Assembly: GCF_000092925.1 (NCBI RefSeq) | Contig: NC_014217.1 | Span: 2,170,001 to 2,234,000, forward strand | Direction of reading: 5' to 3' | Source: Ancylobacter novellus DSM 506 | GTDB taxonomy: Bacteria; Pseudomonadota; Alphaproteobacteria; Rhizobiales; Xanthobacteraceae | DNA: 64,000 nt | Shown: positions 1 through 11,237 of the stretch, piece after piece | Position numbering within the stretch: position 1 is the first letter of the stretch | Layout of the letters: the number at the start of each line of letters is the position of its first letter | Notes under the pieces: generated by a model | Told to the model about the DNA's origin: nothing | The model's database searches: none | The model's input: only the letters and a program-made list of their open reading frames with translations | Made by a program: the position numbers and the translations under genes

Positions 1-495
1 AGGCGATGCGGCGGCAAATGCACGCTGCTGCAAATCCGCAATGGATGCTGCCGGAACAGCCCCCTCATCCTCCTCTTCGATGAGGGCCTCGATTGGCCGC
101 AGTTCAAAGACAATTGCTTGGCGAAGCGAACCGCTCCGGTCCGGAGCAGGTTCGTAATGGAAGGCTTCGCAGACGTATTGGCCTTCAAAGCTAAGGCCTT
201 CACGAGTCTTGCGGAAGACCAGCAAGTCGCGTCCGTCGATGTGGTGGTTCCTGATCGCGGCATTCCCTCGAATGAAGCTCATGTCGCCAAGCTGCCCCTC
301 GCCGAAATACTCGAACACCCCATCGGGGCGCATCCGATCCGCGTAACCGTGAACCGTGCCGGCCTCTCCCGTAATCAAGATCACCACGGGATGCCGCCTA
401 GGCGTGACAATGCCGCCCCGCTCCTGGCCCTCGAAGCGGTCGTGGATGTCGCGGCGGCGATTGTAGCTGCGCCCTCGTTCAAAGCCCCAAACCAT
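1..495 (-). CDS. ScoMcrA-like SRA-domain endonuclease, N-terminal part (runs off the left edge)
   Basis: The first 165 residues are visible, reading leftward from an ATG at 495, and the frame is open to base 1. The opening WGFERGRSYNRRRDIHDRF, then GQERGGIVTP, YFGEGQLGDMSF, a GN-AIR-H segment and DLLVF are the pattern I know from the SRA-like domain of ScoMcrA-type HNH endonucleases. These are type IV-like restriction enzymes that read modified cytosine (ScoMcrA itself also reads phosphorothioate DNA). The HNH nuclease domain would normally lie downstream and is not in the window, so nuclease activity is inferred. The gene is divergent from the phage operon, with a 168-base intergenic stretch (496-663) in which I see no clear promoter. 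The opposing orientation suggests cargo rather than part of the morphogenesis operon. Confidence 0.65.
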   Translation of the reverse strand, partial: MVWGFERGRSYNRRRDIHDRFEGQERGGIVTPRRHPVVILITGEAGTVHGYADRMRPDGVFEYFGEGQLGDMSFIRGNAAIRNHHIDGRDLLVFRKTREGLSFEGQYVCEAFHYEPAPDRSGSLRQAIVFELRPIEALIEEEDEGAVPAASIADLQQRAFAAASP

Positions 496-663: not shown

Positions 664-927
664 ATGCCTATCGTGAGCCTTGAAGAGGCCAAGCGTCATC
701 TCAGGATCGAAGGGAACGTCGACGACGCCTTGATTTTGGAGAACATCGCCGTCGCCGAAGGATACGTCGAGAGCTTCGTCGGAACCATCGGCGAGGTTGC
801 CGATTACGTGCCGGACACGCTTAAGAAAGCGGTCCTTTTCATGGCGGAATACTATTTCGACGGCAACAATAGCGCCAAAGAACGTGCCGATGAGCTGATC
901 TTGCCGTATCGGAAGTGGAGCTTCTGA
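664..927 (+). CDS. Phage head-tail connector protein (HK97 gp6-like)
   Basis: An 87-residue protein beginning with an SLEEAKRHLRIEG motif followed by short alpha-helical segments, typical of the gp6-like DNA-packaging/connector family. These proteins form a ring under the portal and join the head to the tail. The length matches the family (about 90-110 residues). The ATG at 664 has no good Shine-Dalgarno sequence close by, the nearest purine-rich run being around 600-607, so the start is somewhat uncertain. It is the first gene of a tightly packed operon and is separated from the next gene by one base. Its presence implies a portal partner, which is not encoded to its right. Confidence 0.75.
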   Translation: MPIVSLEEAKRHLRIEGNVDDALILENIAVAEGYVESFVGTIGEVADYVPDTLKKAVLFMAEYYFDGNNSAKERADELILPYRKWSF

Positions 928-928
928 C

Positions 929-1333
929 ATGGCGGACCAGCTCACGAAGCTCCAAAAGCGCTTCGCCGCGATCCCGCGCGAGGTGAAGCAGGCGGTTCAA
1001 CCTGCGCTCCAGCGCTCCGGTGAAGAGCTTGTCGCCACGATGCGCCAGCTCGCGCCGGAGGATACCGGTGCGCTGAAAGAGTCTATCGTCGCCACGCCTG
1101 CCGGACAGTCGACCCCCGTCTATTCCCAGCCCGGCGGCGCAACCGTGGTGCCCGAGAATGCCGTCGCCGTGACGGCGGGCAACACTGACGTCCGCTATGC
1201 GCACCTCGTCGAGTACGGCACCGCCGAGGCGCCCGAACAGCCGTTCTTCTGGCCCGCCGTGCGCCTCACCCGGAAGCGGATCACCAGTCGCATCAAGCGC
1301 GCCGTTTCCAAGGCCGTGAAGGACGCGCGCTGA
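929..1333 (+). CDS. HK97 gp10-family phage protein (tail completion/neck)
   Basis: This 134-residue protein starts with a helix-rich LTKLQKRFAAIPREV segment and contains an APEDTGALKESI motif, which is the recognisable signature of HK97 gp10-like proteins. The family acts in the neck or tail terminator region of siphophages. A segment near residues 85-110 (VRYAHLVEYGTAEAPEQPFFWPA) also matches the family's usual YA-LVEYGT and QPFF-PA pattern. The stop codon TGA at 1331-1333 shares its last base with the ATG of the next gene, which indicates translational coupling. Nothing suggests decay. Confidence 0.75.
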   Translation: MADQLTKLQKRFAAIPREVKQAVQPALQRSGEELVATMRQLAPEDTGALKESIVATPAGQSTPVYSQPGGATVVPENAVAVTAGNTDVRYAHLVEYGTAEAPEQPFFWPAVRLTRKRITSRIKRAVSKAVKDAR

Positions 1334-1740
1334 TGGAACCGACGCTTGATCTTCAGACCGCGATCCGCACCCGGCTGATCAATGATCCGACCGTGACGGC
1401 CCTCGTGCCGGCGGCGGCGATCCTCGACCGCCACACCCGGCCCGAGCTGGAACGCATGATCATTCTCGGCGAGGGACAGCACGTCGCGGCGGACAGCTAC
1501 AGCAGCTTCCACGAGCGCGTTTTCCTGACGCTGCACGTTTGGGTCCGTGCCGACGATTTCGTGCTTTGCAAGACCATCGCCGACGCGGTGCGCAGGGCGC
1601 TTCGCGGTGCACCTTGGATCGCGAGCGGGCACGTAGTGCATGGCGCCACGATCAGCACCCGCTATTTGCGCGATCCCGGCGGCGAGTACGCGCACGGCGT
1701 CATCAGCATCGATGCCGTGATGCAGGGGCTTGCGGCATGA
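1333..1740 (+). CDS. DUF3168 family phage tail completion protein
   Basis: A 135-residue protein with the layout of DUF3168 (gp17-like) tail terminator proteins: an N-terminal LQTAIRTRLINDPTVTALV segment, a beta-rich middle with HERVFLTLHVWVR, and a C-terminal beta strand. The family caps the tail tube and binds the head completion ring. It overlaps the preceding gene by one base and the following gene by an ATGA junction, so it sits inside a coupled operon. Confidence 0.7.
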   Translation: MEPTLDLQTAIRTRLINDPTVTALVPAAAILDRHTRPELERMIILGEGQHVAADSYSSFHERVFLTLHVWVRADDFVLCKTIADAVRRALRGAPWIASGHVVHGATISTRYLRDPGGEYAHGVISIDAVMQGLAA

Positions 1741-2054
1741 AGCCCTCGGACCTGACGCACCTCGTGATTTTTGAGCGGAGTACCGAGGCTATCGCCCCCT
1801 CCGGCGGCGTGGATCGTGTTTGGGCAGAGATCGCCCGTGCTCGCGCCGAGCTTGTCGAGGGCGGTGCCACCGAGGAACAGAAGGACCGTGGCGCCGTCAG
1901 CGTCACCGCCCTCACCTTCCGGGCGCGGTATGTGCCCGGCATCACCTTGGCAGATCGCGTGATCCATGGCGGCAGCGCCTTCGACATCATCGGGCTTGCT
2001 GAGATCGGGCGGCGCGAGGCGCTGGAAATCCGCTTGCGGAGGACCGGGCCATGA
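1737..2054 (+). CDS. Phage head-tail joining (head closure) protein
   Basis: Translation from the ATG at 1737 gives 105 residues. The start forms an ATGA overlap with the stop of the DUF3168 gene. The features HLVIFERSTEA near the N-terminus, a central VWAEIARARAEL, and a TFRARYVPGITLADRVIHGGSAFDIIGL stretch match the head-tail joining protein family (phage_H_T_join, SPP1 gp16-like), which plugs the portal channel after packaging. In canonical siphophages this gene precedes gp10; here it follows DUF3168. It ends in another ATGA overlap with terS. Confidence 0.75.
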   Translation: MKPSDLTHLVIFERSTEAIAPSGGVDRVWAEIARARAELVEGGATEEQKDRGAVSVTALTFRARYVPGITLADRVIHGGSAFDIIGLAEIGRREALEIRLRRTGP

Positions 2055-2464
2055 GGGGACGTCGCCCTGCCACTATCACCATCGGCTCGTCGCCTGTGAC
2101 GTGCCTGCCCAAGCCGCCGGCCTTTCTGGCGAAGGACGGCAAGGCAGAATGGCGCCGCGTCGCGCCGATCCTGATTGAGGAACGCAAGACGCTCACGGTT
2201 GCGGACCTCGCCACGCTCGCGAGCTACTGCGTTGCCGTTGGTACTGTTGCCGAATCCAGCCGCACTATCGCTCGTGAAGGCATGACCTTCATGAGCACGA
2301 CTGGTCCGAAAAAACACCCTGCCGTCGCGATCCGCAATGACGCCATGACACAAGCTCGCCTTCTCGCTGGCGAGCTTGGCCTGACGCCCGTTGCGCGCTC
2401 GCGTGCCGCCGTGCGCGAGGATGCCGAGAACGATGACGCCGACAACCCGCTGAAGGTGCCGTAG
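2051..2464 (+). CDS. Phage terminase small subunit, P27 family
   Basis: A 137-residue protein with an N-terminal basic GRRP start, a PPAFLAKDGKAEWRRVAPIL segment and a helical core, as in P27-family small terminases. The family recognises the phage packaging site and regulates the large subunit. The segment GPKKHPAVAIRNDAMTQARLLAGELGLTPVARSR near residues 78-115 is a typical P27 signature. The start overlaps the stop of the joining protein (ATGA) and the stop overlaps the GTG of terL (TAGTG). Finding terS downstream of the head-tail genes is unusual, as it normally opens the packaging module. Confidence 0.8.
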   Translation: MRGRRPATITIGSSPVTCLPKPPAFLAKDGKAEWRRVAPILIEERKTLTVADLATLASYCVAVGTVAESSRTIAREGMTFMSTTGPKKHPAVAIRNDAMTQARLLAGELGLTPVARSRAAVREDAENDDADNPLKVP

Positions 2465-4083
2465 TGGCGAGCACCTTCCCGGCATGGGTTTTCGACGAGA
2501 GCGAAATTCCCGATCCGCTTGGCTATGGCGAGCGGGCCGTCGAGTTCCTGCGTCGCCTTAAGCACCCTTTGAGCACCGAGCCGGGATTTCGATTCCAGCT
2601 CCCGAGGTGGCTAGAGCGCATCGTCCGCCGCATTTATGGCCCGCGTGATGAAGATGGCGAGCGCATCGTGCGCGAAGTCTTCCTCTTCCTTCCCCGTGGA
2701 AATCGAAAGACCAGCATCGCCGCCGCGCTGGCCCTGCTGCACCTGCTAGGACCGGAGCGCGTTCCAGGCGGACAGATCATCTTCGCCGCGTCGGATCGTG
2801 AGCAAGCCGGCATCGGATTTCGCGAGGCCGCCGGCATAGTCGAGATGGACAAGCGCCTGGGATTCGCCACCCGCATCTATGAGCCGCATGCCGGAATTCG
2901 CACCATCAAGAGCAAGCTCGACGGCTCAACCCTTCGGGCCGTGTCGTCGGATGGTAGGGCACAGCACGGCACCACCCCGACCTTCGTGCTCGCCGACGAG
3001 ATCCACTCATGGCAGCGCCGCGACCTCTGGGAAGCGCTGCAATCCGGCATGGCCAAGCGCCGTGGCGGGCTGACCATCGTCGCCACAACGGCGGGCCGTG
3101 GCAATGAGGGGCTGGCCGCAGAGCGCTATAACTACGCGCGTCGGGTTGCCCTCGGCGAAATCGAGAATCCTGCCTTCCTGCCGATCATGTTCGAAATCGC
3201 TGCTGATGAGGATTGGCAGGATGAAGCCATTTGGCACCGCTGCAATCCTGGCCTCGCCTACGGCTTTCACGACATCAAGAAATTCCGCTCGGACGCGGAG
3301 GAAGCGCGCGCCAATCCCTCGAAAGCCTTTGAGTTTCAGCAATTCAAGCTCAATCGCTGGTTCGGCAACAGCCGCGATCCGCTCTTCGATATGCGGACTT
3401 ACGATGCGGGCATCGATCCGGACTTCGATCTAGCCGGGCTGGAGAGGCTGCCCTGCTTCCTCGGCGTGGACATGAGCGTCAACGGCGACTTAACCGCCAT
3501 TGTTGGTGCATGGCGACATGACGACGGGCGGATTTCCATCCACCCATGGTTCTTTGTACCGGGCGACGATCTTCGCATTCGTGCCGACGTTGACGGCGTG
3601 CCCTATGAGCGCTGGCGCGATGAGGGACTGATCAACGCGGTTGCAGGGGCGATCATCCGTCCCGAGGCTATCGAGGCGCATATTCGCGAGCTGTACGAGC
3701 GCTTCGCAGTCGAGGAGATCGCGTTCGATCCACACCTCGCAGCGACCATCATGCAGCGGCTTTTCGAAGACGGTCTCCCCGTGGTGGGAATGCGCCAAGG
3801 TCCGCTCACCATGGCTCCGGCGATTGGCGCTCTGGAGCGCACCGTCAACGGCCGCCTGCTGCACCACAGTGGACACCCCATCCTCCGGCATCACTTCGAC
3901 TCCGTTGTCGCCAGCCGAAACGACACTGGTCTCGTGCGTATGCACAAGGGCAAGCGCACCGACCGTATCGACGGTGCCGTTGCTGCCGCCATGGCGGTAG
4001 GCCGCGCCAGCCAAGGCGAGAAGCCTAAGAGCATCTTCGAATCCGACGATTTCGACCCCTCTAGCGTTGTGTTGAGTTTCTAA
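2464..4083 (+). CDS. Phage terminase large subunit
   Basis: A 539-residue ATPase-nuclease that translocates and cuts phage DNA at the portal. The Walker A-like PRGNRKTS lies near residues 77-84 and the Walker B VLADEIHSW near 174-182. A nuclease-domain start, GVDMSVNGDLTAI, lies near 334, and the last acidic motif RIDGAVAAAMA near 501. Both domains are full length and intact. The start is GTG, overlapping the terS stop, and the stop TAA overlaps the ATG of the tape-measure gene. The large subunit normally docks on its cognate portal, which is not seen here. Confidence 0.9.
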   Translation: MASTFPAWVFDESEIPDPLGYGERAVEFLRRLKHPLSTEPGFRFQLPRWLERIVRRIYGPRDEDGERIVREVFLFLPRGNRKTSIAAALALLHLLGPERVPGGQIIFAASDREQAGIGFREAAGIVEMDKRLGFATRIYEPHAGIRTIKSKLDGSTLRAVSSDGRAQHGTTPTFVLADEIHSWQRRDLWEALQSGMAKRRGGLTIVATTAGRGNEGLAAERYNYARRVALGEIENPAFLPIMFEIAADEDWQDEAIWHRCNPGLAYGFHDIKKFRSDAEEARANPSKAFEFQQFKLNRWFGNSRDPLFDMRTYDAGIDPDFDLAGLERLPCFLGVDMSVNGDLTAIVGAWRHDDGRISIHPWFFVPGDDLRIRADVDGVPYERWRDEGLINAVAGAIIRPEAIEAHIRELYERFAVEEIAFDPHLAATIMQRLFEDGLPVVGMRQGPLTMAPAIGALERTVNGRLLHHSGHPILRHHFDSVVASRNDTGLVRMHKGKRTDRIDGAVAAAMAVGRASQGEKPKSIFESDDFDPSSVVLSF

Positions 4084-6032
4084 TGGCGATCGATGACCCC
4101 CAGCTCGTCGTAATGCTCGAAGCGCGCATCCGCGATTTCGAGCGCAATTTTCAGCGCGCTAGCCGCACCGCCGGCACGAACTTTCGCCAGATAGAGCGGC
4201 AGGCCAGCAACAGCGCCACGCGCCTGCAGAACACCTTCGCCGGGATCGGGCGCGGCATGAGCACCGCGTTCGGTGCCGTAGCTGGCGCCGCCGGCATCGG
4301 CGGCCTTGGTGCCGCTGGGCTCTTCGCCGGTGCCCGTACCGCAGCGGCGGACCTTGCGAACCTTTCGGCAGAGGCGCAGCGCGCCGGCCTCGGCGTCGAG
4401 GCGTTTCAAGAGCTGGGATACGCGGCGCAGCAGTCCCGCGTGAACATCGATGCCCTCACGGACGGCATCAAGGAAATGCAGCTCCGCGCCGATGAGTTTA
4501 TCACCACGGGCGCAGGCGGCGGCGCCGAGGCCCTTCAGCGTCTCGGCTATTCCGCCGAAGAGTTGAAGGTGAAGCTCGCCGATCCGGCCGCGCTCTTCGA
4601 AGAGATCATCGAACGGCTAGGCCAGCTCGACACGGCGGCGCAAATCCGCATCGCCGACGAGATATTCGGCGGCACCGGCGGCGAACAGTTTGTGCGGCTG
4701 CTTCAGCAGGGCAACGGCTATATCGGCCGGATGCGGCATGAGGCCCGCGACACCGGCAACGTCATAGACGCCGAGCTGGTGCAGCGTGCTGTCGAGATCG
4801 ACAGGGCATTCGCCCGCATCAGCGCCACCATCGGGACGAACCTGAAGGGTGCGCTCGTCGGCGTCGTCAGCCTCATACGCGACTTCGCGGACATGCTTCA
4901 CGCCACGGAAAACCAGAGCGCCAGCACCCTTCAGCGGCGTATCGAGCTGATCAACGCCGCCGTCGAGAATGCCCGCAAGTCGAGCCTCGCGTTCCTGGCT
5001 ATCGGTGGCGACACCGGCATTGCTTCCCGGCTCGCCGAGCGTGACGAGCTTCAGAGCCAACTCGACAGTCGCCCCGCCACGTCCATAACCGTGACCAAGC
5101 CCGGCGGCATGGGCGATCTATCAAAGATCACCACGCCTGCGCAGAAGGCGGCGAACGATCTTGCGAAAGCGTACGACGGCATCATCGCCAGCGCACAGCA
5201 GCGTGTCGCCAGCCTCAACACCGAAACCGCCGCCCTCGGCATGACGACGCGGGAAGCCGAGCGCTTCCGCCTGGAACAGGAGCTGATCGCCGAGGCGCAG
5301 CGCGCTGGCATCACACTGACGGATGCGCAGCGGCAGGCCATTGCCGAGTTGGCATCGGCCTATGGCGATGCAGCGGCAGCGGCGGAAGCCGCCAGCACCC
5401 GCTTGCAGAATGCCGAGACCATGAAGGCGGCATTCGCTGACATAGGCGCCGAGGGCGTGCGCTCGTTCGTTGCCGACCTTCGGCAGGGCGTCAGCCTGAC
5501 GGGCGCCCTCTCGAATGCCCTTGCGCGCCTCGGCGACAGGCTGATGGACCTTGGCCTAGACCTCGCCCTCTCCCCGCTCTTGAACGTGCTGTCCGGCGGG
5601 CTGACGAGCGCCCTCGGCTTCTCCGGTGGCGGCGCCGTTCCCAAGTTCGCCAGCGGCGGGCATGTACGCGGCCCCGGCACTGGCACGTCGGATAGCATCC
5701 CGGCGATGCTCTCGAACGGCGAGTACGTCGTGAACGCGGCGGCGACGGCCCGGCACCGGGCCTTGCTCGACGCGATCAATGCCGGCGTCGCGCTCCCGGC
5801 CTTCGCTTCCGGCGGCATCGTCCGTTCGCCGGGAGCCGGTGGAAGGGGCGCGACCGTGCAGTCCATCAGCTTCGCGCCGACGATCAGCGTATCCGTCGAG
5901 GGCGGATCGCGTGGCCCCGCTGCCGATGAGGCCATGGGTGCGAGGATCGCCGAGCAGATCGAAGGCCAGATACGGCACTTCGTGGTCGACGAGCTAATGG
6001 TGCAGATGCGCCCCGGAAATATTTTGGGCTGA
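4083..6032 (+). CDS. Phage tail tape measure protein (short)
   Basis: A 649-residue protein with a long alpha-helical N-terminal half, an Ala/Gly-rich membrane-like stretch near residues 58-85 (GRGMSTAFGAVAGAAGIGGLG and following), and many repeated helical segments. The glycine-rich C-terminal part contains FASGGHVRGPGTGTSDSIPAMLS and GEYVVNAAATARH, the hallmark of tape-measure C-termini. Tape measures set tail length and are threaded inside the tail tube. The protein is short for the class, implying a short tail if used alone. No major tail protein, tail chaperone or tail-tip gene flanks it: terL is upstream and a small acidic ORF is downstream. It ends the coupled run that begins at 664. 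Confidence 0.75.
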   Translation: MAIDDPQLVVMLEARIRDFERNFQRASRTAGTNFRQIERQASNSATRLQNTFAGIGRGMSTAFGAVAGAAGIGGLGAAGLFAGARTAAADLANLSAEAQRAGLGVEAFQELGYAAQQSRVNIDALTDGIKEMQLRADEFITTGAGGGAEALQRLGYSAEELKVKLADPAALFEEIIERLGQLDTAAQIRIADEIFGGTGGEQFVRLLQQGNGYIGRMRHEARDTGNVIDAELVQRAVEIDRAFARISATIGTNLKGALVGVVSLIRDFADMLHATENQSASTLQRRIELINAAVENARKSSLAFLAIGGDTGIASRLAERDELQSQLDSRPATSITVTKPGGMGDLSKITTPAQKAANDLAKAYDGIIASAQQRVASLNTETAALGMTTREAERFRLEQELIAEAQRAGITLTDAQRQAIAELASAYGDAAAAAEAASTRLQNAETMKAAFADIGAEGVRSFVADLRQGVSLTGALSNALARLGDRLMDLGLDLALSPLLNVLSGGLTSALGFSGGGAVPKFASGGHVRGPGTGTSDSIPAMLSNGEYVVNAAATARHRALLDAINAGVALPAFASGGIVRSPGAGGRGATVQSISFAPTISVSVEGGSRGPAADEAMGARIAEQIEGQIRHFVVDELMVQMRPGNILG

Positions 6033-6105
6033 CGACGCGAGTCCGGCCCCGCGCCCGCTATAATTGGTGGACGCACATTCAGCACACGCTTGGGAACAAA
6101 AGAAA

Positions 6106-6133
6106 CCCGCCCGGAAGGAGAGAACCGGGCGGG
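6106..6133. terminator. Perfect 9-bp stem hairpin after the tape-measure gene
   Basis: CCCGCCCGG and CCGGGCGGG flank a 10-base loop 73 bases after the tape-measure stop. There is no U-tract on the plus strand, but a T-rich stretch follows the stem when read on the minus strand. It most likely ends or attenuates the morphogenesis transcript, separating it from the replication genes. Its strength as an intrinsic terminator is uncertain. Confidence 0.45.
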
Positions 6134-6190
6134 CTAGAGCGTTGAACTTAGTCTCGACGTATGAGCACCCCAATGCCGTGGAGCGATCAC

Positions 6191-6418
6191 ATGGATAAGT
6201 ATAGCAACTGTGCAGCCGATTGCACAGAAAAAGACGAAAATAATTCTGCCGACGACCTCGATTTATCTAGCCTCGATGAGCTGATTTACGAGCTAACGCA
6301 CATGAACGGGCGCGCCTGTGTTGCGCCGCCCAAGCGCGACGAGGCGGCAGAGCTTGCCGCGCTTGAAGCCGAGTTCGATGCGCTCACCGAGTTCGTCGCG
6401 GGGCTCGACGACGAATGA
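6191..6418 (+). CDS. Small acidic protein of unknown function, coupled to the HUH Rep gene
   Basis: From the ATG at 6191 the product has 75 residues. This start is preceded by GGAG about eight bases upstream. An in-frame ATG at 6161 would give 85 residues but has no ribosome-binding site. The protein is strongly acidic, with segments DDLDLSSLDELIYELTH and AAELAALEAEFDALTEFVAGLDDE that look like amphipathic helices. I do not recognise a family. Its stop overlaps the start of the Rep gene (ATGA at 6415), so the two are probably made together. A negatively charged partner that shields or regulates the basic N-terminus of Rep is a possible role, but this is speculation. Confidence 0.5.
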   Translation: MDKYSNCAADCTEKDENNSADDLDLSSLDELIYELTHMNGRACVAPPKRDEAAELAALEAEFDALTEFVAGLDDE

Positions 6419-7236
6419 GCGGCGAGCCGATAGGGGCGACGAAACCAGCCCGAAAGTCATGTTCAAAAACGGAACGCCAGACCCGCCGCCGCGCGCGTAA
6501 GCGGGATGGCGATTTCCTTATGCGTTCAAGGATTTATGCGGCATCGGGCGTTCCGACCGCCGGGGAAGGTTCTTTAGGCGAACACTCACCTCACCCTTCT
6601 GCATCCCCCTCTCATTCCTCCTACACACCCCCGAGGAAGAACACTCGCACCCTAGACGCCCTCTTCACCAGATATAGAAAAACGCGCACGCCGCCGCGCT
6701 GGGATGAAGCTTCAGCTCTCGCCAAGGCCACCTTCTATCACCGGGAGGTTTCCAAACGCGGGGGCGTGTCCTTCACGCTCAACTTCGGCCCCGAGGTGGA
6801 GAAGGCCGCGCGCGCCGATCCTGCCTCTTTCACCGAGCACGTCCGGCGGCGTCTCAGGCGCTTTCTGAAAGCCGAGTTCGGCCGGACGGTGGATTACTGG
6901 TTTGGCGTGGACATCTCCGATGAGGGGCGCCCGCACCTTCACGGCGGCATCACCGTATCCGGCAACGAAGCCGAGGCTCTAGGACGCGCGCTCGCCCGTG
7001 CCGGCGGCAAATGGGGCTCTGTGCGCGGCGTGAAGCATCAGGCGCACGTCGGGGATCGCCTGGACGACGATTGGGCCTCCTACGCCACCAAGAAGATTAC
7101 CCGGTCCCGGCAGGAGGTGTTCGGCTCCATGCTTTCTGTAACCGATAGCATCCGGCGCGCGGCAAAGGATGCCTTTGAGCGAGAACGGAAGCTCGTTTTG
7201 TCGGTGACGAAAGAGGAGAATATTAGTCACTACTGA
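6415..7236 (+). CDS. HUH-type rolling-circle replication initiator/relaxase-like protein
   Basis: A 273-residue protein with the three HUH endonuclease motifs in order: motif 1 (VSFTLNFG) near residues 118-125, the metal-binding HLH at 174-176 within RPHLHGGI, and a catalytic tyrosine candidate Y223 in YATKK. Such enzymes nick one DNA strand and stay covalently attached to start rolling-circle replication. The first 90 or so residues are a basic, low-complexity extension with an RRRARKR run, which could bind DNA. A single tyrosine points to a Rep-type rather than a two-tyrosine P2 A-type enzyme. It is translationally coupled to the acidic ORF before it. An IS91/ISHP608-type transposase is less likely given size and context. 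Confidence is high for the HUH fold and moderate for replication. Confidence 0.7.
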   Translation: MSGEPIGATKPARKSCSKTERQTRRRARKRDGDFLMRSRIYAASGVPTAGEGSLGEHSPHPSASPSHSSYTPPRKNTRTLDALFTRYRKTRTPPRWDEASALAKATFYHREVSKRGGVSFTLNFGPEVEKAARADPASFTEHVRRRLRRFLKAEFGRTVDYWFGVDISDEGRPHLHGGITVSGNEAEALGRALARAGGKWGSVRGVKHQAHVGDRLDDDWASYATKKITRSRQEVFGSMLSVTDSIRRAAKDAFERERKLVLSVTKEENISHY

Positions 7237-7321: not shown

Positions 7322-7555
7322 TTGAAATCTTCTGTGCTGAAAGCCGCCGGCGGCACCGCCCCGGCATACGATGAACTGTGCGCGTCTCTTGCCGCCGAGC
7401 TTCTGGCGACCGTCGAGTCCTTCGCGGCCCGCCATGGGCTTGGCCCGCTCCACAGTGACGGGCTTCGACAGATGTCCGTGAAGCTCCCGGACGCCGCCGC
7501 CGAACTGATGATGTTCGGGTTCAATGTGTGGCCGGACGATCTGCCGGCCCAATGA
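7322..7555 (+). CDS. Hypothetical protein, 77 residues
   Basis: The start is TTG at 7322, with a GGAG about ten bases upstream. The product is helical in its first half (YDELCASLAAELLATVESFAARHG) and has no family I recognise, no signal peptide and no membrane segment. It sits alone between the Rep gene and the next promoter. GC content and codon use look like those of the neighbouring element genes, and the reading frame is well maintained. Function unknown. Confidence 0.45.
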   Translation: MKSSVLKAAGGTAPAYDELCASLAAELLATVESFAARHGLGPLHSDGLRQMSVKLPDAAAELMMFGFNVWPDDLPAQ

Positions 7556-7563
7556 TACGACGC

Positions 7564-7606
7564 TTGCGTTCACTACCGTTGCGTTTTATACAGAACGCAA
7601 CGCAAC
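7564..7606 (+). promoter_or_regulatory. Promoter embedded in nested TTGCGTT/AACGCAA repeats
   Basis: TTGCGT (7564-7569) and TTATAC (7586-7591) form a -35/-10 pair with a 16-base spacer. The -10 box lies in the loop of a perfect inverted repeat, GTTGCGTT (7578-7585) and AACGCAAC (7594-7601). Another TTGCGTT copy is at 7564-7570 and an extra AACGCAAC overlaps at 7599-7606, so several half-sites of one operator cover the whole promoter. A strong GGAGGG ribosome-binding site follows, and the gene starts at 7617. The layout predicts tight repression, perhaps by the gene's own product. Confidence 0.5.
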
Positions 7607-7616
7607 GGAGGGATCA

Positions 7617-8126
7617 ATGGCGAAGTCTGCAACTGAGCGCTCTCGTGAATTCCGCGAACGGCAGCTCCAGCGTACCAAAGCCAAGCTGAAAGCGGCTCCA
7701 GCGCGCCCGGCTTACCTCGCCGGTTCATTCGCGGACTTCATGAGAGGTCGGCACTTGGACCTGTACGAAAACCTCGACGCCTTCGGCGTGTTCATCAACG
7801 GCAGCTCGTTCGATGAAGACCAGCAAACGTTCCAGTCGCAGGTGCACCGGGACGAACCGCTAGACTCGCTTCAGCGCGCAACGGCGTTGGTCGAAGTGTT
7901 CACGGATGCCGCTAGCGAGCTGGCGTGCGCCATCAATGAATACAAGCTGGCTGAGGTTCAACGCGCGATCGATGCGGCATTTGCTAGGGCAGCTGCGCTG
8001 CCGCCCGGCAACGTCGAAGCTCTGAAAGCCGAATGGGCAGAAGCTGAGCGCCTTAAGGCCCTGCAAGCTGGCCTGCGCACGCCCAAGCGCCACACCTTTC
8101 CCGGCATCACGACAAAGGGGGAGTGA
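7617..8126 (+). CDS. Hypothetical protein with SATERSREFRERQ N-terminus
   Basis: The start at 7617 was chosen because GGAGGG lies six bases upstream and the nested operator is immediately before it; the product has 169 residues. The N-terminal ATERSREFRERQLQRTKAKLK is a charged helix of a type often seen at the start of small phage and plasmid proteins that bind nucleic acid. The rest is helical with no recognised domain. Given the promoter architecture, autoregulation is possible, but I see no helix-turn-helix or ribbon-helix-helix that I would stand behind. Function unknown. Confidence 0.55.
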   Translation: MAKSATERSREFRERQLQRTKAKLKAAPARPAYLAGSFADFMRGRHLDLYENLDAFGVFINGSSFDEDQQTFQSQVHRDEPLDSLQRATALVEVFTDAASELACAINEYKLAEVQRAIDAAFARAAALPPGNVEALKAEWAEAERLKALQAGLRTPKRHTFPGITTKGE

Positions 8127-8240: not shown

Positions 8241-8783
8241 ATGAACGACGGGATTTCCAACGTCAGGCTCACTCAGAAGGGCCTGTTCGACCTCTTTCTT
8301 CGCCTGCGAATGGAGCCGCACGACCGCTTTGGTAGGGGCAGCGGATGCCCTCATACCCCACTGGATCAGTTGGACGGATCGACCGCAGATTCCTACGGCT
8401 TCGGTGCGGAGCTGGCGTTTGGCGTTAAAGAGCGCGTGGCCAACAGTGACACTCCGCAGGACGACCTTGATTGCCTTTGCCGGGACGCAGAAGCCTATGC
8501 CCACGAACTGTGCGCCATGGCCGAGGACTTCCTCGTGGTGATTGAGCGCTGCGCTATCGAGCCCTCGGATGTTGCGCCATCTGATCCCGGCGAACGCGCG
8601 GCATGGGAGCAGGCGTGGGAAGAATACGCACAGAACCCCCTCTATTCGCTCGAGCGGTTTCTTGCGCTTCCGAATGTCCCTGATGAGGTAAGGGCGATCT
8701 TCTCTCCGTCGCGCCGCCTTAGCTCACTCCAGAAGTTCCGGCTCTTTCACGCGGCACCGAGCCTCAATGAGGAGGCCGCCTGA
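8241..8783 (+). CDS. Hypothetical protein, 180 residues
   Basis: The product has 180 residues, is acidic, and lacks a signal peptide or membrane segments. The middle contains a helical DDLDCLCRDAEAYAHELCAMAEDFL stretch and the C-terminal third a FLALPNVPDEVRAIFSP segment. I do not recognise a family. It is coupled to the next gene: its TGA at 8781-8783 shares a base with the following ATG. The pair lies between the hairpin leader and a strong terminator and so forms a two-gene unit. Element-specific accessory function is all that can be said. Confidence 0.5.
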   Translation: MNDGISNVRLTQKGLFDLFLRLRMEPHDRFGRGSGCPHTPLDQLDGSTADSYGFGAELAFGVKERVANSDTPQDDLDCLCRDAEAYAHELCAMAEDFLVVIERCAIEPSDVAPSDPGERAAWEQAWEEYAQNPLYSLERFLALPNVPDEVRAIFSPSRRLSSLQKFRLFHAAPSLNEEAA

Positions 8784-9079
8784 TGGCAAAAGCCTCCTAT
8801 GTGATTGAGCCCATCACCCAGGCAGAGCACGATGATATCCGTGGCCGCCTGCGGAGCCGTCGCAATGCCGCCGGCTCATTCAATGTGACGAAAAAGGTGG
8901 ATGAGGCAACCGGCGCGGTTTCCTACCTCAAAGATTGGCAGCCCGGATTCGACATGCCCTTTGGCGGCATCGAAGGCACCCTAGACGGCCAAAATGTCGT
9001 GCTGCTTTCCGATGGCTCGAGCGCAGGTTTTTACCGGCTCCGGTATCTGCGGCCGCCACCGATCGGCATTTCGATATAG
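8783..9079 (+). CDS. Hypothetical protein, 98 residues
   Basis: A 98-residue product starting in a TGATG overlap with the gene before it. It has a basic helix near the start (HDDIRGRLRSRRNAAGSF) followed by beta-rich sequence with LDGQNVVLLSDGSSAGFYRLRYL. No family recognised. It is the last gene of its unit: a strong intrinsic terminator begins 14 bases after its stop. A role with its upstream partner is implied only by the coupling. Confidence 0.5.
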   Translation: MAKASYVIEPITQAEHDDIRGRLRSRRNAAGSFNVTKKVDEATGAVSYLKDWQPGFDMPFGGIEGTLDGQNVVLLSDGSSAGFYRLRYLRPPPIGISI

Positions 9080-9257: not shown

Positions 9258-10472
9258 ATGGTTATTGCTCGCGCCCAATCCATAACCGAGCAGCAGTTTG
9301 GCACAGTCGAGGTTAACGACTTGGAGCTCGACGTTATGCTGTGCGTGGACCATGATGATCCCGATACAGCATTTGTCTACGTTTGGTCAGAAACAGTACC
9401 TCCTAAGGGAATGTTAGCTAACATTGATCTTATCGACGATAAAAAACTCTCATTACGCTGTCGCTATCTATTTTTAACCGACGACTCTGGGAATTTCATA
9501 CCAGACCAGACTGCAAACAGCTCTCAAGAAACTCTGAGCCAAATCTATATCCTATTGCATAGGCGTGGGCGAGGATTCAGAGGCATATGGCGTGGGCCGA
9601 AAGGATCAGGGGCGATCAGGCTCAGACCCAAGACGTCACAGGGCCGCAAGGTCGCAGATCTCTGCAATAATTGGGATGACTTTAAGCAATGGGCCTCACG
9701 AAGCCGAAATGTAAATGATATCGCCTGCTATCGAGGACATGGTGATAGCAACTTCAAAGTAAGTACATCCTTTCATCGAGATGGAAAGCAGAGAATAGAT
9801 AGATTCGTTTACGGAAACCTCGCAACATTCCATGATCACGCACAAACATTTCTGAATAGAGGCATAAACCTAAAAGATGGGAGCGAGTACGCTACACTAT
9901 TAGCCCTAGCTCAACACCATGGACTTCCAACACCCATGTTGGATGCTACGCGATCCCCGTACATCGCGGCATTCTTTGCGTTTTCGGACTTTCTCGACAA
10001 CCGTTCACATCGAAAACCCACTCCGAAATATGTACGCGTATATGGATTCTCTAGATATTTTCTTGACCATCATACTCCGCCATCGGTCTCTATCCACTTT
10101 CCTAAGCCATACATAAGTCGACTTCGTGTGTCTGGTATACACAATCCTCGACTTAGTGCTCAGCAGGGAGAATTTCTTGTTACCAATATTGCTGATCTCG
10201 AAACGACAATTCAGGAAATGGAGACAGCCACAGGGAAAACATTTATGGTCGCAGCAGATATCCCGAGCTCTTTTGCTGCGGAGGCGTTAGAGGATCTGAG
10301 CTTTATGGGATTAACCGCAGCTAACATGTTTCCTGGATTAGATGGTATTTGTCGAATGCTGAGGCATCAGGCACATTTTGTTCGCCGGCAGATGGAGAAT
10401 TCGGTAGCCACCAGCGGCAAAGATATTCTTCCTACGAATGACTCATTGTGGGGAGAGCCAGAGCCCAAATAG
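9258..10472 (+). CDS. FRG-domain protein (candidate defence effector)
   Basis: A 404-residue protein. The FRG domain is recognisable from CYRGHGDSNFKVSTSF near residue 157 and LLALAQHHGLPTPMLDATRSPYIAAFFAFS near residues 215-243, matching the family's Y-RG, AQHHGLPT-LLD and SP--A-FFA motifs. FRG proteins are widespread in mobile elements and defence loci, and a toxic or DNA/nucleotide-directed role is suspected but not settled in general. The first 110 residues are beta-rich with no domain I recognise. Base composition is visibly more AT-rich than the flanks, with A/T-ending codons common, so this gene was probably acquired separately. It has its own leader after the terminator at 9121. The ATG at 9258 lacks a strong ribosome-binding site. 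Confidence 0.7.
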   Translation: MVIARAQSITEQQFGTVEVNDLELDVMLCVDHDDPDTAFVYVWSETVPPKGMLANIDLIDDKKLSLRCRYLFLTDDSGNFIPDQTANSSQETLSQIYILLHRRGRGFRGIWRGPKGSGAIRLRPKTSQGRKVADLCNNWDDFKQWASRSRNVNDIACYRGHGDSNFKVSTSFHRDGKQRIDRFVYGNLATFHDHAQTFLNRGINLKDGSEYATLLALAQHHGLPTPMLDATRSPYIAAFFAFSDFLDNRSHRKPTPKYVRVYGFSRYFLDHHTPPSVSIHFPKPYISRLRVSGIHNPRLSAQQGEFLVTNIADLETTIQEMETATGKTFMVAADIPSSFAAEALEDLSFMGLTAANMFPGLDGICRMLRHQAHFVRRQMENSVATSGKDILPTNDSLWGEPEPK

Positions 10473-10605: not shown

Positions 10606-11106
10606 GTGGCTACCCCACGGCAGTTGCTTGGCACGTTTGGCGAGGAGCGAGTGACAAAGGAATGTTCCTGTCCCCGATGCAAACGAGCGCGTACTCTGGT
10701 GCGCTTGCCGCCCAACTTCAAATGCGCGGACGTGATCTGCGATTTTTGCGGCTATCTCGCTCAGGTTAAAGCGTCGACATCGGCGGACGTCGCGGTCTTG
10801 CCTAAGCAAATCCTTGGGGCGGCATGGGGGCCGCAAAAGCTGCGTATGGACGCGGGTATCTATTTCCCTTTGTTCCTCGTCCTCGCGAGCAAGAATTTGA
10901 TGCAGCACGCCATTTATTATCTGTCTGCCGATCTACAGGCGCCCGAACTCTTCAAGCCGCGCAAACCTCTCTCGGCCACGGCCCGTCGCGCCGGATGGAC
11001 AGGCTTCATTTATGATCTAAGCGCGGTGCACGACGCCATTGTTCGGCTACCTCCATTGCGACCCGCAGCTCCCGTAACTTCTCCCGAAATTTCTCCCGAA
11101 ACCTAG
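10606..11106 (+). CDS. DpnI-like (Dam-replacing family) restriction endonuclease, catalytic domain only
   Basis: A 166-residue protein starting at GTG, with GGGAGGAGGGG just upstream. It matches the DpnI catalytic domain: zinc pairs CPRC (22-25) and CDFC (45-48), a PD-(D/E)XK core with D42 and, eleven residues on, Q53-V-K55, and RKPLSATARRAGWTGFIYDLS near residues 118-139, very close to the DpnI signature. DpnI cuts methylated GATC. DpnI has glutamate where this protein has Q53, but QXK is used by other active nucleases such as Mrr. The DpnI C-terminal winged helix (last 70 or so residues) is absent. It is the last gene before the tRNA attachment site. Target specificity is inferred. Confidence 0.7.
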   Translation: MATPRQLLGTFGEERVTKECSCPRCKRARTLVRLPPNFKCADVICDFCGYLAQVKASTSADVAVLPKQILGAAWGPQKLRMDAGIYFPLFLVLASKNLMQHAIYYLSADLQAPELFKPRKPLSATARRAGWTGFIYDLSAVHDAIVRLPPLRPAAPVTSPEISPET

Positions 11107-11151
11107 TCGGAATACCAATGTAACTTGTTGATTTAAAAGGGTAATTTTTGC

Positions 11152-11237
11152 TGGTGCGGACGACGGGACTCGAACCCGTAAGCCTTGTGGGCGCAAGATT
11201 TTAAGTCTCGTGCGTCTACCAGTTTCGCCACGTCCGC
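11152..11237 (-). tRNA. tRNA-Leu(UAA)
   Basis: On the minus strand an 86-base cloverleaf runs from GCGGACG at 11237 to CGTCCGC, discriminator A and an encoded CCA at 11152. The anticodon loop reads CTTAAAA (anticodon TAA) and the T loop GGTTCGAGTCC. It has a long variable arm, as expected for leucine. Its 3' end faces the mobile element, the usual orientation for integration into a tRNA gene. I see no second copy of the 3' end within 1-11150. Confidence 0.95.

Follow-up and report, generated by a model that had tools for sequence, protein, structure and literature searches.

A putative capsid-forming satellite with its own tape measure gene in Ancylobacter novellus and its alphaproteobacterial relatives

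The Vibrio cholerae satellite PLE11, one of the phage-inducible chromosomal island-like elements (PLEs), is described as encoding a tail assembly chaperone (TAC) and as placing its own tape measure protein and BhuB into the chimeric tails of its particles; these tails are about 10 nm shorter, and tmp is required for efficient transfer (PMC12987554, 2026). The same paper calls this Vibrio satellite-encoded tape measure the first known, while the legend of its Extended Data Fig. 10b refers to putative tmp genes in PLE-like elements and in capsid-forming phage-inducible chromosomal islands (cf-PICIs). According to their definition, cf-PICIs possess their own capsid and packaging genes and obtain only tails from the helper (PMC10690885), and the related cf-PISP satellite-plasmids, e.g., Vibrio TG54, are presented as small circular molecules with capsid and packaging genes and no complete tail (PMC13230959). 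Here, we analysed a 64,000-nucleotide stretch of the Ancylobacter novellus DSM 506 genome (NC_014217.1, positions 2,170,001 to 2,234,000; G000:C1:2170001-2234000 in our numbering, a genome of one contig), hereafter the window, in which an operon at positions 664-7236 unites neck, terminase and tape measure genes. Judging by its genes and terminal repeats, this operon makes up the right half of a 17.7-kb element that is complete and integrated at a tRNA gene. We consider it likely that the element is a capsid-forming, cf-PICI-like satellite which makes its own head, neck and ruler (the tape measure) and would acquire a chimeric tail with the tube and tip of a helper phage.

Gene content of the element

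A repeat search of the window and its left flank (coordinates left of base 1 are negative) delimited the element by a 19-bp repeat, GCTGGTGCGGACGACGGGA, with the left copy (attL) at -6561..-6543 and the right copy (attR) at 11150..11168, at the 3' end of the tRNA-Leu (TAA) gene (11152..11237, minus strand) that is the putative integration target. A tyrosine integrase gene (-6436..-4745; PF00589) is also present, thus the element appears to share with cf-PICIs the trait of att-site integration by its own integrase. The remaining genes, all on the plus strand unless stated otherwise, begin with those for the portal (-4595..-3351; PF04860, E 1e-93), a chaperone-like TAC_11/GTA-gp10 protein (-3358..-2984; PF11836, E 1e-15), the prohead protease (-2887..-2381; PF04586), the HK97 major capsid protein (-2370..-1231; PF05065, E 8e-77), a phrog_7493 protein predicted to belong to a two-part tail chaperone (-1227..-652) and a packaging-type HNH protein (-655..-305; PF01844, phrog_144). 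Within the window they are followed by the genes for a gp6-like head-tail connector (664..927; PF05135), an HK97 gp10-like neck/tail completion protein (929..1333; PF04883, phrog_5), a DUF3168 tail completion/terminator protein (1333..1740; PF11367, with a weak match to SPP1 gp17, E 0.06), a head completion (joining) protein (1737..2054; PF05521), the small terminase subunit TerS (2051..2464; PF05119), the large subunit TerL with a GTG start (2464..4083; PF03354, PF20441, phrog_9) and a tape measure protein of 649 aa (4083..6032; phrog_10574, E 2e-112). The capsid, protease, portal, connectors, HNH, TerS and TerL that characterize cf-PICIs are therefore all represented, as judged from Pfam and PHROGs. 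After a gap at 6033-6160 come a small open reading frame (ORF) with no family match in Pfam or PHROGs (6161..6418) and a gene for an HUH-type replication protein with the motifs HLHG and, further on, YATK (6415..7236).

An initial annotation of the window had assigned the seven products from the connector to the tape measure as Pfam and PHROGs do, and had rightly described the frames as intact and the junctions as tight: the nine ORFs across 664-7236 are free of internal stops, there is a one-base gap at 928, and at each of the five later junctions that it named the frames overlap by 1-4 bases. It had also noted the lack of portal, protease and capsid genes, and here it was misled by the window edge, as all three lie just beyond it, at -4595..-1231; extending the sequence to the left, as it had proposed, recovered attL and the head block together. 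Its claim that a major tail protein and a tail tip are missing extends to the whole element, in which Pfam, PHROGs and two hidden Markov models (HMMs) of tube proteins revealed no tube, tip, fibre or lysis family. Thus, the tube, tip, receptor-binding and lysis genes of an ordinary siphophage were not detected in these scans, and the tail-related genes found comprise the tape measure gene, the two chaperone-like genes (phrog_7493 and PF11836) and the PF11367 terminator-like gene. The annotation had regarded a full head block accompanied by tail genes on the left as the mark of an ordinary, if rearranged, prophage. The portal-protease-capsid block is indeed directly there; tail tube, tip and lysis genes were not found with it. 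Since, in addition, no complete phage with this gene order was found among the relatives fetched (with families scanned in the right arms of the element and of nine relatives), the element is not an ordinary rearranged prophage. The satellite interpretation put forward in the annotation was retained with respect to the satellite nature, own terminase and neck, and own tape measure; packaging into a helper's capsid was dismissed, as genes for a portal, a protease and an HK97 capsid belong to the element itself.

The phrog_7493 protein was considered as a hidden major tail protein and rejected, since its family occupies the chaperone position in two loci of the comparison set (G055 and G004_C3_232140). 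It is also annotated as a tail assembly chaperone in the Methylorubrum populi plasmid pMPOP02 and matches p43, not the tube protein p41, of Sinorhizobium phage phi2LM21. Sequence searches of the PDB with phrog_7493 and TAC_11 matched no phage protein, and NCBIfam offered no name for the chaperone-like proteins, the tape measure, Rep or the PF11367 protein.

Having its own head, packaging, neck, chaperone, ruler and terminator genes and neither tube nor tip, the element would be expected to form chimeric tails. Following induction, the integrase may excise the element, and the HUH Rep, to judge from its motifs, would replicate it. Functions suggested by family membership imply that the element's protease and major capsid protein would build the head, and that its TerS, TerL and HNH proteins would package the DNA through its own portal, after which the satellite neck proteins may close the head. 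The tape measure and the satellite chaperone(s) would nucleate on the tail-tip complex of a helper siphophage and recruit the helper's tube protein; the tape measure would then set the tail length and the satellite terminator cap the tail. The resulting particle would combine a satellite head, neck and ruler with a helper tube and host-recognition tip; for the substitution of the tape measure, the PLE satellites provide the precedent.

We found a candidate helper in the same genome, namely a siphophage-like prophage at about 1-33 kb of the contig C1 (L095, L096). It gave HMM matches for HNH, TerL, portal, capsid, neck, tube-like and TAC_11-like proteins and a tape measure of 668 aa, and large tail-like and lysozyme-like ORFs after the tape measure gene were read by eye, not family-scanned.

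The designation of the gene at 6415-7236 as an HUH Rep, also made in the initial annotation, is supported by motifs, while its Pfam match (PF23343, E 0.0015) is below the cut-off. In the Rep family of 30 members, own included, the HxHG motif is kept in 28 and the later YxxK in 25, and the Ancylobacter protein has both. Further to the right are four small ORFs of unassigned function between 7322 and 9079 (7322-7555, 7524-8126, 8241-8783 and 8783-9079), the second of which belongs to a family found again in relatives, and the genes for an FRG-domain protein, a candidate for defence cargo (9258..10472; PF08867, PADLOC PDC-S15), and a DpnI-like restriction protein, also cargo (10606..11106; PF06044, PADLOC mREase_II). 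A reverse-strand cargo gene for an HNH protein similar to restriction enzymes of type IV (-302..495, of which 1..495 is inside the window; phrog_15103, PADLOC mREase_IV) sits between the packaging HNH and connector genes. One satellite thus holds three candidate anti-phage cargo genes (-302..495 on the minus strand, 9258-10472 and 10606-11106).

Relatives and conservation of the layout

The tape measure profile (phrog_10574) matched 87 of the 397 genomes searched in the order at E <= 1e-10. An independent TerL search of the same set matched 50 genomes and gave 31 places at E < 1e-100, which share 39-57% identity (own apart); the TerL matches beyond these show 28-35%, except for a fragment in G326 (230 residues at 48%). 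Genes in relatives were called from HMMs and a simple codon score. In 24 of the 31 close places, the gene next after TerL is a tape measure matched by HMM, and both chaperone-like genes are present in 19 of these 24. In IMG/VR, at least 526 relatives were confirmed by a TerL profile, and 80 were kept for analysis. The tape measure follows TerL in 78 of them, the other two being one locus cut by the contig end and one without the gene; a gpM-like minor tail gene is present in 14. Of the 64 IMG/VR loci with a complete core, 61 share exactly the same core order, in line with the view expressed in the initial annotation that the order is selected and not scrambled, and its proposal to look for the same order among relatives, pursued with both TerL and the tape measure, was borne out, as the layout recurs in genomes of the order and in IMG/VR. 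A class-wide sample yielded a TerL match at E <= 1e-100 in 12 of 385 genomes, own included, of which our own and G117 (both in the order set) are those where the tape measure was looked at. Among the entries listed from the open-access literature we found no earlier description of this alphaproteobacterial satellite family, subscription papers, most preprints and supplements lying outside that search.

The same TerL family is encoded by circular plasmids of 16-23 kb (L213, NZ_CP157016; L214, NZ_CP088250; L216, NC_010721; L215, CP099479) from Paracoccus marcusii (17,494 bp, 64% identity), Methylorubrum sp. (16,127 bp, 42%), M. populi (pMPOP02, 23,392 bp, 46%) and Roseomonas mucosa (16,883 bp, 40%). 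A tape measure was recognized by HMM in the Paracoccus and the two Methylorubrum plasmids, and the tape measure HMMs found no match in the Roseomonas mucosa plasmid record. The plasmid pMPOP02 has a Tn3 insertion and, among its tail genes, a tube, a chaperone and a gpM-like gene. Such satellites may range from those with a ruler only, through ruler and chaperone, to ruler, chaperone, tube and gpM, some as plasmids; a host-recognition tip has not been seen in any so far.

An integrated element with the same layout as that of the window was also found in Sinorhizobium meliloti pSymB. The tape measure of this element (L217:13644-16361) is annotated as a D-alanyl-D-alanine carboxypeptidase and carries a predicted vanY resistance gene label (30.7% identity), which is probably spurious, as position and HMM mark the gene as a tape measure. 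In G095_C30_280468 and G245_C4_205990 the layout is permuted, the tape measure preceding the portal gene and TerL lying at the far end. Three further loci (G245_C4_581730, G193_C1_1238888 and G100_C1_342510) are satellite-like, with an integrase and a tape measure and no full head set, and might be PICI-like satellites with a ruler. The first of them (tape measure at C4:581730-584066) is an element of 14.6 kb, located at tRNA-Asn and having a repeat of 49 bp, and in G100 the tape measure (C1:342510-343310) has a TerS-like gene directly before it.

Several observations weigh against the element being a capsid-forming satellite with a borrowed tail. A PICI-type regulator (AlpA/Stl) and primase-replication genes are hallmarks of cf-PICIs. 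Neither AlpA/Stl nor a primase was recognized by Pfam or PHROGs in the right arm of the element, which has an HUH Rep-like gene instead. No att repeat was found in 4 of the 13 elements examined for their ends, nor did the 68 complete IMG/VR loci (the other 12 of the 80 are partial) show a terminal repeat in the range of 10-300 bases. The tape measures of the element and of the candidate helper can be aligned only over residues 363-607, at 28% identity, so the two are not close relatives. Seven of the 31 close TerL loci deviate from the common layout: four have no ORF above 300 aa after TerL, one has an unmatched 561-aa ORF in that place and in two the tape measure precedes the portal gene; since it is absent after TerL in this minority, the tape measure is not obligatory. 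Finally, among the 24 relatives in the order with a tape measure after TerL, a tail-tube-like gene occurs in 8 and a gpM-like minor tail gene in 7, so that the borrowed share of the tail varies.

These additional tail genes, along with the chaperone-like genes, the tape measure and the terminator-like protein of the element itself, would also suit a small siphophage that is autonomous and in which the proteins for tube, tip and lysis have diverged too far to be recognized. We regard this as unlikely. About 5 kb of the right arm is taken up by Rep, small ORFs, the FRG-domain and the DpnI-like protein, leaving little space for hub and receptor-binding genes. The right arms of the element and of nine relatives were scanned against families, and no tail-tip, fibre, holin or endolysin match emerged from the former or from the 49 non-core ORFs chosen from the latter, among which no lysis family was matched and the sole tail-family match was phrog_14/PF05939, in two. 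Moreover, none of the 80 kept IMG/VR loci matched either of the two tube HMMs, the available ones with which the search was made (the tube HMM of the relatives was seeded with a phrog_158 protein and the gpM-like HMM with a phrog_14 protein).

Ancestry of the tape measure and maintenance of the family

In the TerL tree (51 rows, including 30 of the 31 close places; G064, with a split TerL, was left out), all satellites are parted from nine ordinary prophages by a branch with 100/99 support. In a quick tape measure tree (54 rows), satellites and phages are intermixed, and the supported branches force at least 7 changes. We found that tape measures compared across element types (A, B, C and phage, assigned from gene maps) are more similar within a host genus, with a mean normalized score of 0.229 versus 0.103 for different genera (33 pairs), and none of 2000 label permutations of the full set scored as high. 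The loci compared were recruited via the tape measure itself (phrog_10574) or via TerL; six phage rows (G010, G219, G323, G183, G055 and G004_C3_232140) were labelled by map and ORF sizes, not by family scans, and 7 of 40 stitched loci were left out (G336, G217, G370_C23, G370_C17, G358_C58, G367_C21 and G347_C1_1605187). The control proteins gave no genus signal (1503 of 2000 permutations for TerL, 962 for portal, 839 for PF11367 and 788 for gp10), each with only 9-14 same-genus pairs. At matched loci, the tape measure and the control gave 6 versus 1530 of 2000 for TerL, 5 versus 935 for portal and 32 versus 835 for gp10. The comparison of satellite type A with phages only gave 1 of 2000, and the full-set signal persisted when single genera were omitted (four tried; 0-2 of 2000). 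As individual cases, the nearest match of the G004 satellite tape measure among other element types is a prophage-like locus of the same genome (40% identity), and G245 contains two satellites of different types with tape measures 72% identical.

The ruler gene appears to be an exchangeable module fitted to the host genus at hand, either to its tails or to its envelope. A possible, though tentative, scenario is that of an old alphaproteobacterial packaging lineage which passes on head and terminase genes by descent, and whose tape measure has been repeatedly swapped with same-genus phages and unrelated satellites. If so, the tape measure would serve as a plug-in adaptor that lets the satellite head work with any helper tail, or envelope, available in the host.

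Three points temper the genus signal. At loci matched for PF11367, the smallest of the matched sets, the tape measure signal is not significant (248 of 2000, versus 813 for PF11367); two genera, g63 and g39, carry most of the signal (41 of 2000 when both are omitted); and the genus signal could mirror matching to the host envelope rather than to the helper tail. The last point leads to an explanation in which the element is a capsid-forming satellite with an otherwise helper-derived tail, and its tape measure acts mainly in DNA entry through the envelope and not in length determination. Tape measures have host inner-membrane partners. They are also described as facilitating DNA transit (PMC5099701), and the similarity by host genus, as well as the D-Ala-D-Ala carboxypeptidase family annotation of one relative's tape measure, would agree with such a role. 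Yet, the chaperone-like genes and the terminator-like protein are kept alongside the ruler, which fits assembly, and particles of PLE11 with the PLE tape measure are reported to have shorter tails (PMC12987554); hence, we find a role mainly in DNA entry rather improbable.

In their maintenance, these elements resemble active ones. Nine of the 13 examined for ends have a repeat at a tRNA gene (Leu, Ser, Pro, Gln or Thr) giving both ends, and these nine bounded elements measure 16.9-18.3 kb (mean 17.69, s.d. 0.51). The dN/dS ratios, calculated for 27 disjoint IMG/VR pairs and retained only where dS < 1, have medians of 0.17 for the tape measure (14 pairs), 0.07 for TerL (19 pairs), 0.29 for phrog_7493 (15 pairs), 0.30 for TAC_11 (12 pairs) and 0.20 for PF11367 (15 pairs), and the nine core proteins tested are under purifying selection. 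A decaying prophage remnant that has lost its tail genes, to which the missing tail genes and the split genes of a few relatives (TerL in G064; portal in L135; integrase, portal and protease in L159) might point, is very hard to reconcile with the recurrence of one reduced set of genes, in one order, across dozens of divergent elements and, where ends were found, at various tRNAs, with the narrow size range, with the purifying selection and with the intact core ORFs in the window. A scrambled or decayed prophage was rejected on the grounds of conserved order and purifying selection, and a domesticated gene transfer agent because tRNA repeats flank the element, which carries an integrase, HNH and TerS.

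Comparison with described satellites

Compared by description, the element resembles cf-PICIs (Alqurainy et al. 2023, as cited in PMC10690885) as an integrated island with its own capsid, protease, portal, connectors, HNH, TerS and TerL and no complete tail module. Unlike cf-PICIs as described, it adds a tape measure, two chaperone-like genes and a PF11367 gene beside the packaging genes, it has an HUH Rep and no recognized primase or AlpA/Stl, and its host is an alphaproteobacterium. With the V. cholerae PLEs it shares a satellite-encoded tape measure and tail chaperone, which here would enter a helper-derived tail. However, PLEs depend on the capsid proteins of their helper, a phage with a contractile tail, while the element has its own head and neck genes and siphophage-like tail genes; because of its own HK97 capsid module it is no PLE, although it may act like one in the tail. 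As in cf-PISPs, relatives of the window element exist as plasmids, of 16-23 kb; in contrast to cf-PISPs, whose main description does not contain the term "tape measure" in its main text (PMC13230959), the Paracoccus and two Methylorubrum plasmids have tape measure matches. A homologous tape measure, with a matching tail assembly chaperone directly before it, is present in the lambda-like siphophage phi2LM21. The latter, in turn, is a phage of 46.6 kb that has lysis genes as well as a tube and fibres, and in which the order is TerL-joining-portal-protease-capsid-tube-chaperone-tape measure.

As the ruler follows the host genus, in contrast to TerL and portal, one can ask directly whether a tape measure has to fit the tail tip of the helper or the envelope of the host, and the system is testable thanks to the plasmid relatives and to the siphophage-like prophage in the same genome. 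In view of PLE11 and the cf-PICI and cf-PISP precedents, satellites with a tape measure are already known as a kind. What seems to be new here is a large, conserved alphaproteobacterial family with a fixed neck-terminase-ruler order, plasmid relatives and a host-genus pattern of the ruler. This family suggests that the ruler trick is common and under purifying selection in a second bacterial class, in satellites that make their own heads.

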